From Chloroflexota bacterium (lineage in GTDB: Bacteria > Chloroflexota > Anaerolineae > Anaerolineales > Villigracilaceae): a stretch of 60,662 nucleotides of DNA. The notes below the pieces were generated by a model. That model saw only the letters and a program-made list of their open reading frames with translations, searched no databases and was not told where the DNA came from. The translations under genes were made by a program, and so were the position numbers. Shown piece after piece: positions 4,220 to 53,816 of this stretch. The DNA is taken from contig JACRLC010000043.1 in assembly GCA_016235425.1 (NCBI GenBank), positions 1-60,662 on the forward strand, written 5' to 3'. Numbering within the stretch: position 1 is the first letter of the stretch; every line of letters begins with the position of its first letter.

Positions 4220-4293
4220 TGGGTGCTAAGGGACTCGAACCCCTGACCCCTTCCGTGTAAAGGAAGTGCTCTAACCAACTGAGCTAAGCACCC
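4220..4293 (-). tRNA. tRNA-Val (anticodon UAC)
   Basis: The reverse strand folds as a complete tRNA. The acceptor stem is GGGTGCT/AGCACCC, and the D arm is GCTC...GAGC. The anticodon stem CTTCC/GGAAG holds the loop TTTACAC (anticodon TAC), and the T arm contains GGTTCGAGTCC. The discriminator is A and the CCA end is not encoded. It reads GTA (and other Val) codons. Confidence 0.97.
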
Positions 4294-9907: not shown

Positions 9908-10714
9908 CTAGATTTGCTTGATGATTTTGCTATGTGCCAGCATTACGCGCACAAGGATCGGCTTACCAATCCCCTTTAGCTCCAAACTGCGCGACTCCAG
10001 TTTTCCGCCGTCCATGCCTGCTTCCCGGAGTGCCCGCTCGCTGACAATGATCTCGCCTGCCGCGGCCTTGGATGCCAGACGAGCGGCCATGTTTACCTCG
10101 TCGCCTATTGCTGAAATCTCCGTCAGGCCGTCAGCTGTGCCCATTGCGCCAAAATAAGCCACCCCTGAATGGACACCGATGCCTACCGGAATCTTTTCCC
10201 GCTCCATGACTCTCAACAGATTCTGCGCGGCCTTCAAAGTCCGCCGCACGTAATTCGGGCCTGCAAACCCTGCTCCCCAAAAAGCCGCCACTGCATCGCC
10301 AGCCAGCTTTTCCACCAGTCCATCCTCTTCATTGATGGCTTTCGTTGACTCTATGTAAAACCGATTGATCAACTGGCTGAATTCCCTCGGACTCATCTGC
10401 TCGGAGAGCGCCGTGGAACCGCGCACATCTGCGAAGAGCATGGACATTTCGACCTCGGCTCCCCCTGGAAATTTGCGCGAATATTCCTCGCAAATGTTAC
10501 AGAAACGAGGGTTCAAAACAGATCGTTGTTTGCCAAACAATGAGCGGACAATGGTTCCGCCAGCTCCCTGAAAGGGGGCATAACAGAATTTACAGCGCGG
10601 GTCGTGTGGAAGCATTCGGAAAATTTTACGCAGGGGTCTGTCAATGCTGAATGCACTGTTCGTGAACCATTCCCGCCACAATTTGTCGACATCCATGGAT
10701 TTGTTATCGCTCAT
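9908..10714 (-). CDS. Class III adenylate/guanylate cyclase with Cys4 N-terminal module
   Basis: The catalytic domain (about residues 85-260) keeps all key residues. Metal aspartates are in LFADVRGS and LAGDAV. The purine-selecting Lys is in VEKLAGD and Asp in AIGDEV, which fits ATP rather than GTP. Asn/Arg of the transition state are in VNMAARL. The N-terminal 80 residues have two CxxC pairs (CKFCYAP and FCNICEEY), a likely zinc or redox module replacing a sensor or membrane domain. The product is probably a soluble cAMP-forming enzyme. ATG at 10714 is preferred over an upstream TTG. It lies 45 bases upstream of mutS2 on the same strand. Confidence 0.88.
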   Translation of the reverse strand: MSDNKSMDVDKLWREWFTNSAFSIDRPLRKIFRMLPHDPRCKFCYAPFQGAGGTIVRSLFGKQRSVLNPRFCNICEEYSRKFPGGAEVEMSMLFADVRGSTALSEQMSPREFSQLINRFYIESTKAINEEDGLVEKLAGDAVAAFWGAGFAGPNYVRRTLKAAQNLLRVMEREKIPVGIGVHSGVAYFGAMGTADGLTEISAIGDEVNMAARLASKAAAGEIIVSERALREAGMDGGKLESRSLELKGIGKPILVRVMLAHSKIIKQI

Positions 10715-51179: not shown

Positions 51180-52982
51180 ATGACCATTTCTGCCCCCCGC
51201 TGGGATCTGACCAACGTCTATCCCTCGCTTGAATCAAAGGAATTCAAAGCCGCCGTCGAAGATTACAAGAAACAGGTCGCGGCCTTCGAGAAATTCTTCA
51301 AGAACAAACTCAACAAAGCGGATGCGAAGACTCCCGTCAAGGAACTGGCCGTTTTGGTCGGCGGCGCGATTGACCGCATGAACAAGATCCAGACACTCTC
51401 CGCCACCATCGTCCCCTTCATCTATTCATATTTCACCACCAACTCGCGCGATAAACTCGCCGCAAAGACACTGTCCGAATTTGAGCAGGCCAGCCTGCCG
51501 ATGGATAAACTCATGACCCAGTTCAAGGCGTGGCTTGGCAAAATCGCCGACAAACTCGATAAGGTCGTTGCCTTGAACAAATCCGCCGCGGCGCATGCCT
51601 TCATGCTCAAGGAGGCCGCCGAGCAGAGCAAATACCTGATGAGCAATGAACTGGAGGGCCTGGCCGCGGAAATGTCATTGAGCGGCGGGAACGCCTTCGG
51701 TAAATTGCAGGGCACTGCCGTTTCACAGATGTCGGTGGAGTTTGAACTCGATGGCAAGGTCGAAAAGATGCCGATGCCCGCGTTGATCAACCTGCGCTCA
51801 CACCCCGACGAAGCGACACGCCGCCGCGGCTACGAAGCCGAGAACAAAGCCTGGGATGAGGCAAAAGAGACTTTGGCGGCGTGCATGAACGGGGTCAAGG
51901 GGGAGGCGATTACGTTGAATAAACGCCGCGGCCGGAAGGACGCGGTCCATTCCTCGATTGAGGCGGCGCGCATAGATCGCAAGACTCTCGAAGCCATGCT
52001 AGAAGCGATGGAAGGCTCCTTCCCGATGTTCCGCAAGTATTTCAAAGCCAAGGCAAAGAAGATCGGCAAGGAAAAACTTGCGTGGTGGGATATCTTCGCC
52101 CCGCTCGGCAAAACGGACAAGGTCTATTCGTTTGAGGAAGCGCGCGATTTTATCCTCGACAACTTCGGCAAGTTTTCGCCCGGTCTTGCGGCCTTTGCCA
52201 AACGCGCCTTCGACAATAACTGGATTGATGCCGAACAGCGCGACGGCAAACGCGGCGGCGCGTTCTGCATGGAAGTGCAGGGCGTGAAGGAAAGCCGCAT
52301 CCTTTCAAACTTCGACGGTTCGTTCGACCAGGTCAGCACGCTGTCACACGAGCTGGGACATGCCTTCCATAACGAGTGTGCTTATCAGGCAAAGAAGACC
52401 GTCCTGCAGCAACTCACGCCAATGACCCTGGCCGAAACCGCATCCACGATGTGCGAAACCATCGTGACCGAAGCCGTGCTTGCCACAACCAAAGATCCGC
52501 AGGAGGAATTGGCCGTGCTCGAAGCGCAGATCCAGGGCGCATCCCAGGTGACGGTGGACATTTACTCGCGCTACCTGTTCGAGAAGGAAGTCTTTGAGCG
52601 CCGCGAAAAATCCGAACTTTCCGCCGATGACCTGAACGAGATCATGGAACGCGCGCAAAAGGCCGCCTATGGCGACGGTCTCGACGAACGCTATCTCCAG
52701 AAATTCATGTGGACGTGGAAACCGCATTACTATTCGCCCGGTCTTTCCTTCTATAACTATCCGTACGCGTTTGGCCTGTTGTTCGCAACCGGCCTTTATG
52801 CCATCTACCAGCAACGCGGTGCGGACTTTGTGCAGGATTACAAGAACCTGCTCGCGTCCACCGGCGAAGCCACCGCGGCTAATCTCGCCAAACGCTTCGG
52901 CATTGACATCCGCAAGCGCAAATTCTGGGATGACAGTCTCGCCATTATCGGTAAACGCGTGGATCGCTTCTGCGAAATCTAG
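51180..52982 (+). CDS. pepF: M3 family oligoendopeptidase F
   Basis: This 600-residue cytosolic zinc peptidase has the active site LSHELGHAFHNE, i.e. H390-E391-x2-H394, with the third zinc ligand Glu in the downstream AETAST helix. The helical N-terminal half shapes a narrow channel for short peptides. FYNYPYAFGLLFATGLYAIY near the end is typical of the pepF clade. Single gene; a hairpin follows the stop. Confidence 0.95.
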   Translation: MTISAPRWDLTNVYPSLESKEFKAAVEDYKKQVAAFEKFFKNKLNKADAKTPVKELAVLVGGAIDRMNKIQTLSATIVPFIYSYFTTNSRDKLAAKTLSEFEQASLPMDKLMTQFKAWLGKIADKLDKVVALNKSAAAHAFMLKEAAEQSKYLMSNELEGLAAEMSLSGGNAFGKLQGTAVSQMSVEFELDGKVEKMPMPALINLRSHPDEATRRRGYEAENKAWDEAKETLAACMNGVKGEAITLNKRRGRKDAVHSSIEAARIDRKTLEAMLEAMEGSFPMFRKYFKAKAKKIGKEKLAWWDIFAPLGKTDKVYSFEEARDFILDNFGKFSPGLAAFAKRAFDNNWIDAEQRDGKRGGAFCMEVQGVKESRILSNFDGSFDQVSTLSHELGHAFHNECAYQAKKTVLQQLTPMTLAETASTMCETIVTEAVLATTKDPQEELAVLEAQIQGASQVTVDIYSRYLFEKEVFERREKSELSADDLNEIMERAQKAAYGDGLDERYLQKFMWTWKPHYYSPGLSFYNYPYAFGLLFATGLYAIYQQRGADFVQDYKNLLASTGEATAANLAKRFGIDIRKRKFWDDSLAIIGKRVDRFCEI

Positions 52983-53040: not shown

Positions 53041-53499
53041 ATGAGCCAAAGGAAAAAATGGATCAGCCTCATCGCCGGAGCCGCCTTGTTCGCGGCGGCC
53101 CTGGCATGTAACTTTGCTTCGCCTCAACAGGCGACGGATTTTCCCACCCCGCCCCCGTTCGCCACAGAGAATCCATACTATGAAGTTGAACGCGTGTCGC
53201 TTGAAGAGGCCAAAGCCGCATTTGACAGCGGCGCGGCAATTTTTGTTGATGCGCGCAGTGCCGCGTCATATGCCGAGAGTCACATTCCCGGCGCGCTCTC
53301 GATCCCTGTAGCCGAGCTTGAAAGCCGCTTGAACGAGCTCGACCCGGATCAATGGATCATCACCTACTGCACCTGACCGAACGAGGAAACAAGCGCCCGT
53401 GCGGCGAAGATTTTGCTCGAAAACGGTTTCACAAACGTAAACCCCATCCTTGGAGGCTTCCGTGCCTGGGCAGATGCCGGGTATCCCGTTGAACCATGA
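53041..53499 (+). CDS. Lipoprotein rhodanese with in-frame UGA at the catalytic Cys (candidate selenoprotein)
   Basis: ATG at 53041 opens a lipoprotein signal (AAALAC, lipid Cys at about 23). A rhodanese domain follows: VSLEEAKAAFDSGAAIFVDARSAASYAESHIPGAL, then ITYCT, a TGA codon (53374-53376) and PNEETSARAAKILLENGF, then ILGGFRAWADAGYP. Rhodanese loops of this kind read YCxCPNExxS, so TGA replaces the loop Cys that carries sulfur. Downstream the frame stays open to 53499 and its stop overlaps the cupin start (ATGA). A small stem CGCC/GGCG with loop CGTGC lies 18-30 nt after the TGA. Either selenocysteine is inserted, or the gene is mutated or miscalled. Confidence 0.7.
53394..53406 (+). promoter_or_regulatory. 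Candidate bacterial SECIS apical stem
   Basis: CGCC (53394-53397) and GGCG (53403-53406) pair around the loop CGTGC. Outer helices AAA/TTT and GAG/CTC can extend it with internal loops. The loop G and U sit about 22 nt after the TGA, within the range seen for bacterial SECIS. Short GC stems are common in coding DNA, so this is weak support alone. Confidence 0.35.
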
Positions 53500-53816
53500 C
53501 GACGAACACGCCTCTTGTCACCCCTTGGTCTGATTCCGTTCCCCCAACCCAATCCGCCCTTTGGAAGCTGATGGTGGACGAGGGACTCACTCCCTACGCG
53601 TGGTCGAACAGGCCGCATGATATTTATGCCGCGCACACACATTCATACAACAAAGTGATTTACGTGGCGCAGGGAAGCATCACGTTCGGTTTGCCTGAGT
53701 TGGGAAAGCAAGTCACCTTGAAACCCGGCGACAGGTTGGACTTACCGGCGGGCACGCTTCACGATGCCCACGTCGGCGCGCAGGGAGTGGTCTGCCTGGA
53801 GGCGCACAAAGGTTGA
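53496..53816 (+). CDS. Cupin domain protein
   Basis: This 106-residue single cupin barrel has metal-site residues HTHSYNKVIYVAQGSITFGL (HxH..., Glu replaced) and PGDRLDLPAGTLHDAHVG (second His). It may bind a metal and a small ligand; no specific reaction can be assigned. The ATG overlaps the stop of the extended rhodanese reading frame by four bases, which is coupling only if that frame is really translated to its end. Confidence 0.85.
   Translation: MTTNTPLVTPWSDSVPPTQSALWKLMVDEGLTPYAWSNRPHDIYAAHTHSYNKVIYVAQGSITFGLPELGKQVTLKPGDRLDLPAGTLHDAHVGAQGVVCLEAHKG

Follow-up and report, generated by a model that had tools for sequence, protein, structure and literature searches.

The window, by which we mean the whole analysed stretch of 60,662 nucleotides, carries on its forward strand at 53041..53499 a gene that we read, based on its read-through translation, its Pfam match, and a conserved family of relatives, as encoding a CxU rhodanese selenoprotein of 152 residues with Sec at position 112. 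The frame is open from 53041 to 53496 apart from one TGA at 53374-53376 (residue 112), beyond which 40 codons follow before the stop codon TGA at 53497-53499. When read through, the protein matched the Pfam family Rhodanese (PF00581) with 63.3 bits (cut-off 22.2) over residues 54-145, in agreement with an earlier sequence-only reading of this DNA, which had seen a single TGA at 53374 and a rhodanese fold completed by 40 more codons. A PF00581 search of the whole genome gave 12 matches, and the window gene, with its one TGA inside the rhodanese domain at 53200..53475, was the only one with an internal stop. The active loop reads Tyr-Cys110-Thr-Sec112-Pro (YCTU) and contains the C-x-U motif, with the Cys110 codon at 53368..53370. 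Residues 1-22 (MSQRKKWISLIAGAALFAAALA) and the following Cys23, encoded at 53041..53109, were found by a pattern script to look like a lipoprotein signal; the sequence-only reading had also called the product a lipoprotein.

The terminal stop codon shares the letters ATGA (53496-53499) with the start codon (53496-53498) of a cupin-like gene on the same strand (53496..53816; 26.5 bits for Cupin_2, just below the cut-off of 27.2), which confirms the overlap that the sequence-only reading had described for the full frame. Upstream, also on the forward strand, lies a gene for a peptidase of family M3 (51180..52982; PF01432, 124.1 bits). Farther away, a tRNA gene lies at 4220-4293 on the reverse strand; nothing else in the window matched Rfam at the gathering threshold. 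Among the stretches listed, same-frame open stretches split by a single TAG are found at 9908 (reverse strand), 6684, and 22724 (both forward strand); one of them may be the gene with an in-frame TAG that had been mentioned before.

A protein search of the 152 genomes of the window's taxonomic family gave a match in 148, and among the matches listed there are at least 102 places that contain one TGA and no more, spread over at least 74 of the 152 genomes, with up to three such places per genome. For comparison, we used 157 loci from this search and from named contigs of metagenome-assembled genomes with titles of the Chloroflexi or Anaerolineales type (L057-L083); for four loci (L096, L097, L099, and L101), the alignment did not cover residue 112, which left 153. 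At this residue, 129 of these 153 loci have the codon TGA. The remaining 24, with another codon or a gap, are remote rhodaneses with mostly CxxGxRS-like loops, and the only TGC in this column (L087) was read as a Cys of the canonical type that had been displaced by the alignment. The two collections overlap, and removal of identical 270-nt stretches left 99 of the 129 TGA genes as a non-redundant set, in which the loop is Y-C-T-U in 96 genes and Y-C-A-U in three. In an alignment of 63 proteins, R51, D70, Y109, C110, residue 112, E115, S118, A119, A122, G138, G139, and W143 were invariant.

An open reading frame that ends at the TGA at 53374 is also legal according to the open-reading-frame listing, and this TGA could in that case be a true stop in a truncated or decaying gene, or the assembly could be wrong. 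The sequence-only reading had itself cautioned that base errors or decay might be responsible and had named truncated relatives with decayed 3' halves as one of the findings that would speak against a selenoprotein. We found the 3' halves of the relatives to be intact and conserved, and the recurrence of the TGA in so many listed places excludes base error or decay in practice; truncation, decay, and base error as causes of the TGA are thus ruled out by the conservation in relatives. With the covarying hairpin and the Sec machinery described below also standing against it, a true stop has next to no probability. Ordinary gene calling would cut the window gene at residue 111, and the 74 or more family genomes (of 152) with their 102 or more listed TGA places share this problem. 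A plasmid or phage origin was rejected as well, as tblastn matches were present in 241 plasmid and 8 phage records, none of them with a single place that covered 80% of the protein.

Downstream of the UGA, at 53394..53406 on the forward strand, lies a putative apical SECIS hairpin (CGCC-CGUGC-GGCG), in which 53394-53397 pair with 53403-53406 around the loop CGUGC (53398-53402). It occupies the positions 18-30 nt past the UGA and leaves a gap of 21 nt between UGA and loop; this is the small GC stem with a G-U-containing loop at SECIS distance that had been noticed from the letters. The description of the bSECIS model in a 2026 review (PMC13188914) has an upper stem of 4-16 bp, a loop of 3-9 nt with a G in its first two positions, and a distance of 16-37 nt from the UGA. 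The hairpin fits this description with its 4 bp, its 5-nt loop with G and U at loop positions 2-3, and its 21 nt.

In the 99 non-redundant genes, the codons AGC-GCC-CGT-GCG-GCG past the UGA are almost frozen, with Ser AGC in 91/99, Ala GCC in 98/99, Arg CGT in 95/95, Ala GCG in 96/96, and Ala GCG in 91/99. Several codons are used elsewhere, as seen from the codon entropies at R72 (2.11 bits), G139 (1.93), A146 (1.85), and P149 (1.86), and low codon entropy also occurs outside the hairpin at D70 (0.77) and G138 (0.98); it is low as well in the stretch that directly precedes the UGA, where Thr is ACC in 96/96.

The covariation of the stem was analysed with the 99 genes and 35 remoter members, which together gave 126 distinct sequences in a gap-free alignment. 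Of the resulting 504 pair cells (126 sequences and four pairs), 99.6% were paired, and double changes occurred at all four pairs. Pair 21-33 was CG in 115 sequences, UA in eight, AU in one, UG in one, and unpaired in one; pair 22-32 was GC in 124, AU in one, and unpaired in one; pair 23-31 was CG in 124, UA in one, and UG in one; and pair 24-30 was CG in 124 and UA in two. Only two of the 126 sequences (L141 and L238) had a broken pair, one each. Slid registers paired only 25-73% of the cells, and the register slid by +2 reached a covariation score of 0.099 versus 0.106 for the true one, with 49.0% of its cells paired and one pair with double changes. None of 500 shuffles, which take no account of relatedness, matched any of the five covariation measures. 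When the close family was placed on a protein tree, parsimony gave five changes for each of the columns 21 and 33 and six for the pair, and the sequences with U-A at this pair sit at four separate points of the tree (L060; L079; L115; and the group L120/L138/L140/L150). As read by eye, 11 of the 13 double changes were synonymous at the paired sites, the exceptions being L215 and L250. Taken singly, the window sequence did not fold with a better energy than its shuffles (z -1.53 for 66 nt and z -0.12 for 45 nt). The hairpin pattern had three matches in the host genome (the window and contigs C62 and C17) and none in the reversed control; in the C62 match, a stop codon lies directly ahead of the TGA. 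Taken together, the comparative evidence for Sec insertion via this hairpin is strong: SelB with Sec-tRNA would recognise the hairpin at 53394-53406 and insert Sec at the UGA at 53374. Being short, and near-frozen and covarying throughout the phylum, the hairpin would make a clean model bSECIS.

The host genome of the window (5.0 Mb in 109 contigs, 99.57% complete) contains selA (546.8 bits, cut-off 267.9), selB (332.8 bits, cut-off 242.25), selD (353 bits, cut-off 125), and a tRNA-Sec (70 bits, gathering score 47; anticodon tca according to ARAGORN), so that the four components for which a check had been proposed are all present. The selD gene (G000:C20:23311-24243, L104) has a single in-frame TGA of its own in the context CAG-U-ASK and is a selenoprotein candidate itself. 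Within the taxonomic family, selA scored above the cut-off in 141 of the 152 genomes, and as it is nearly universal, finding it has no discriminating value. When the two listings were compared by hand, 71 of the 74 genomes that have a TGA place listed also had selA, and G039, G115, and G143 show none.

One could also think of a general or programmed read-through by which the UGA is decoded as a residue other than Sec. The terminal stops of the 99 non-redundant genes (59 TAA, 20 TAG, and 20 TGA) argue against this, since UGA also terminates 20 of these relatives; together with the presence of the Sec machinery, this rules out a general reassignment of UGA. The SECIS-type hairpin and the homologues with Cys at the Sec column (see below) likewise speak against another residue, for which we see very little probability. 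The same UGA with a matching hairpin occurs in about a hundred related genes, and the UGA at 53374 therefore almost certainly inserts Sec. The recurring TGA, the covariation of the hairpin, and the Sec machinery thus support what the sequence-only reading had put forward as a candidate selenoprotein.

With regard to the anchor, a strict script found a lipobox in 55 of the 99 genes, and a looser script assigned 62 to a lipoprotein type and 33 to a type with a transmembrane anchor, leaving four undecided, which means that 95 of the 99 have a signal or a transmembrane segment. Extracytoplasmic anchoring is thus very likely on the basis of these sequence patterns. Comparison supports Sec at the UGA, the hairpin, the YC-x-U loop, and the anchor signal alike, and the reading that combines them, namely a genuine selenoprotein that is lipid-anchored and extracytoplasmic and has a CxU loop, has in our estimate a probability of about 0.85. 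This selenoprotein, apparently extracytoplasmic, would then have a large reservoir in the Anaerolineales.

The two anchor types are associated with different gene contexts. Neighbours were sought up to 2.3 kb from the UGA, and since at least 1.5 kb on both sides was available in 82 of the 99 loci and at least 2 kb in 58, all counts are lower bounds; each neighbour was named after one representative scanned against Pfam, with the cupin representative below its family cut-off. The commonest neighbour was the M3 peptidase, a homologue of which lies near at least 48 of the 99 loci, 47 of them of the lipoprotein type. A cupin homologue is near at least 15 loci, of which 14 are of the lipoprotein type. 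Found with the lipoprotein type only were an acyl-CoA dehydrogenase on the other strand (at least 34 loci) and a glutamate-type dehydrogenase (at least 22). Near the transmembrane type, we found an ArsR-family regulator (at least 12), an E1-E2 ATPase (at least 11), a cation-efflux protein (at least 7), a PCu(A)C copper chaperone (at least 7), and FeoB (at least 6). A second rhodanese without UGA adjoins at least 11 loci, 10 of the transmembrane type and one undecided. The regulator, the metal transporters, and the copper chaperone near the transmembrane type suggest that the cell surface is under thiol or metal stress; we infer that this metal-related context is functional.

The sequence-only reading had placed the UGA exactly at the sulfur-carrying cysteine. 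This is not strictly right, because Cys110 falls on the catalytic Cys of 16 ordinary rhodaneses when their profile is aligned with that of the family, followed by a loop insertion of two residues at Sec112, which thus lies two residues on. A gap-free alignment of the YC of 3nhv, a solved protein, to Cys110 also favours Cys110 as the canonical position. One may nevertheless consider that Sec112 carries the sulfur and Cys110 merely resolves. When the loop spacing is counted from the helix side, for which the sequences of the window protein and of L084 were used, Sec112 and Ser118 are six residues apart, as are the catalytic Cys and the second Ser in GlpE-like CYHGNSS. Moreover, Sec is a stronger nucleophile than Cys. 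As the helix-side count favours Sec112, we keep it as a rival carrier, which is unlikely, though not negligible, in view of the ungapped match of 3nhv and of the profile alignment with its gap after the canonical Cys.

With Cys110 at the persulfide-forming position and Sec112 as a second chalcogen two residues on, the lipid-anchored, extracytoplasmic, single-domain rhodanese would, once exported, have a pair of residues that may act, outside the membrane, as a fast switch for redox or sulfane-sulfur chemistry. Cys110 would take up sulfane sulfur as a persulfide or react with an oxidised thiol, and Sec112 would then attack with formation of an S-Se bond, which would be reduced by an external thiol partner. 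This Cys-Sec mechanism of redox or sulfur transfer, and with it the catalytic function, is a tentative proposal to which we give somewhat less than even odds.

By score, the nearest named family is NCBIfam NF041203 (rhodanese_LYCAU, 'rhodanese-related (seleno)protein'), which shares the rhodanese fold and CxU with the window protein. However, the latter scored 83.6 bits and thus below the equivalog cut-off of 115, as did all eight relatives scanned (53.6-87.3 bits), and it is a lipoprotein-anchored protein from Chloroflexota with lipoprotein- or transmembrane-anchored relatives. Owing to this score, we file it as a CxU rhodanese variant and not as an equivalog member of NF041203; judged by sequence, the family is a variant of the CxU rhodanese selenoproteins that is lipoprotein- or transmembrane-anchored and widespread in Anaerolineales. 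GlpE, PspE, and other single-domain thiosulfate sulfurtransferases share the fold and the position of the catalytic Cys, but they have a CxxGxRS-like loop with one Cys, whereas the window loop is two residues longer and contains Sec: the six-residue loop of the GlpE type after the catalytic Cys is replaced by one with a two-residue insertion. The GlpE model NF001195 gave 50.7 bits (cut-off 102).

Among known selenoproteins, five rhodanese forms are given in Table 1 of the 2026 review, of which form 3 is CxU (NF041203), and the list in a 2022 review includes a CxU form of COG0607 (PMC9312934). Rhodanese-type selenoproteins also appear in the lists of the Sargasso Sea and GOS surveys (PMC1088965; PMC2398784); the sequence-only reading had mentioned reports of such proteins from metagenomes. 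The other Sec rhodaneses of these surveys and of Table 1 (UxxS, UxxG, and UxxxxU) likewise have a rhodanese-type domain with Sec, but their listed Sec motif is not CxU, and it is by the listed motif only that they are set apart here. Just three selenoproteins are given for Chloroflexi in a table of a 2006 survey (PMC1794560), and the main text of the deep-Sep paper (PMC12013277) contains none of the terms rhodanese, UxU, Chloroflex, and Anaerolin. Within an incomplete coverage of the literature, we found no paper that names the present family in Chloroflexota. The family adds to a kind of selenoprotein that has been described only thinly, and it led us to apparent double-Sec relatives.

Homologues with two Cys were obtained when 299 genomes, all from the phylum to which a metagenome-assembled genome titled Proteobacteria belongs, were searched with NF041203; there were five matches in four genomes, none above the cut-off. 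Four of the matches, in three genomes, have CxC loops (L265, YCACP; L266, YCSCP; L267, YCNCP; and L269, YCVCP), and the fifth (L268) is an ordinary rhodanese. The family loop YCxCPNE named in the sequence-only reading, with Cys at the Sec column, was thereby found in four loci. In a profile-profile alignment with the CxU family, the loops align without a gap and Sec112 falls on the second Cys of CxC. These four rhodaneses differ in that they are fused behind a VTT (DedA) domain (PF09335), have Cys in place of Sec, and lack the frozen hairpin codons. Another NF041203 search, of six genomes outside the window's phylum, gave nothing above the cut-off, and the loci read from it were without CxC; no CxC protein was seen among the matches read from the search of the window's own phylum either.

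The latter, a profile search, gave matches with E <= 1e-10 in 369 of 400 genomes; ordinary rhodaneses account for many of these matches. We examined 57 loci (L200-L256) with 60 domain hits, picked with a bias to the top of the list and to rows with TGA, and these comprised 32 CxU, six UxU, four C-x4-U, one with Sec at the canonical position only, and 14 without UGA in the domain. The cut-off for selA was exceeded in 43 of the 46 genomes of this set, the others being G405 and G177 with none and G463 with weak matches only. The UxU loci (L210, L211, L215, L218, L228, and L230) come from six genomes of four taxonomic families and have two in-frame UGAs six nucleotides apart and one hairpin, with the loop YUTUP or YUAUP. 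All six loci retain the hairpin, L210 and L215 with compensatory pairs, and selA was above the cut-off in five of the six genomes (none in G405). Among the rhodanese forms taken from Table 1 of the 2026 review, none is UxU, nor does the main text of that review use the term (PMC13188914).

These comparisons make it probable that there are three versions of the two-chalcogen rhodanese loop, CxC, CxU, and UxU, and that some Chloroflexota have double-Sec rhodaneses in which one SECIS hairpin serves to decode both UGAs, perhaps with a diselenide-type site. The UxU relatives, in which Sec would replace Cys110, point to chalcogen chemistry at both positions, and we infer the order CxC to CxU to UxU for the series. 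In a single fold, this series offers the opportunity to ask what each exchange of Cys to Sec buys.

The same 57 loci contain further variants. Eleven of the 14 loci without UGA belong to one taxonomic family, f25 (L223, L225, L226, L231, L233-L237, L239, and L242), and have the loop YGD (10) or YTD (one) with neither Cys nor Sec; they are close homologues from genomes with selA and are possibly non-catalytic relatives. L244, L248, L249, and L251 have a C-x4-U loop, apparently the Sec counterpart of the C-x4-C loops seen, for instance, in L258 and L263. In L253, the UGA coincides with the canonical catalytic position (VVVYUNMQHRGSS). In L243, L246, and L256, the CxU domain lies behind a Na+/H+ exchanger domain (PF00999).
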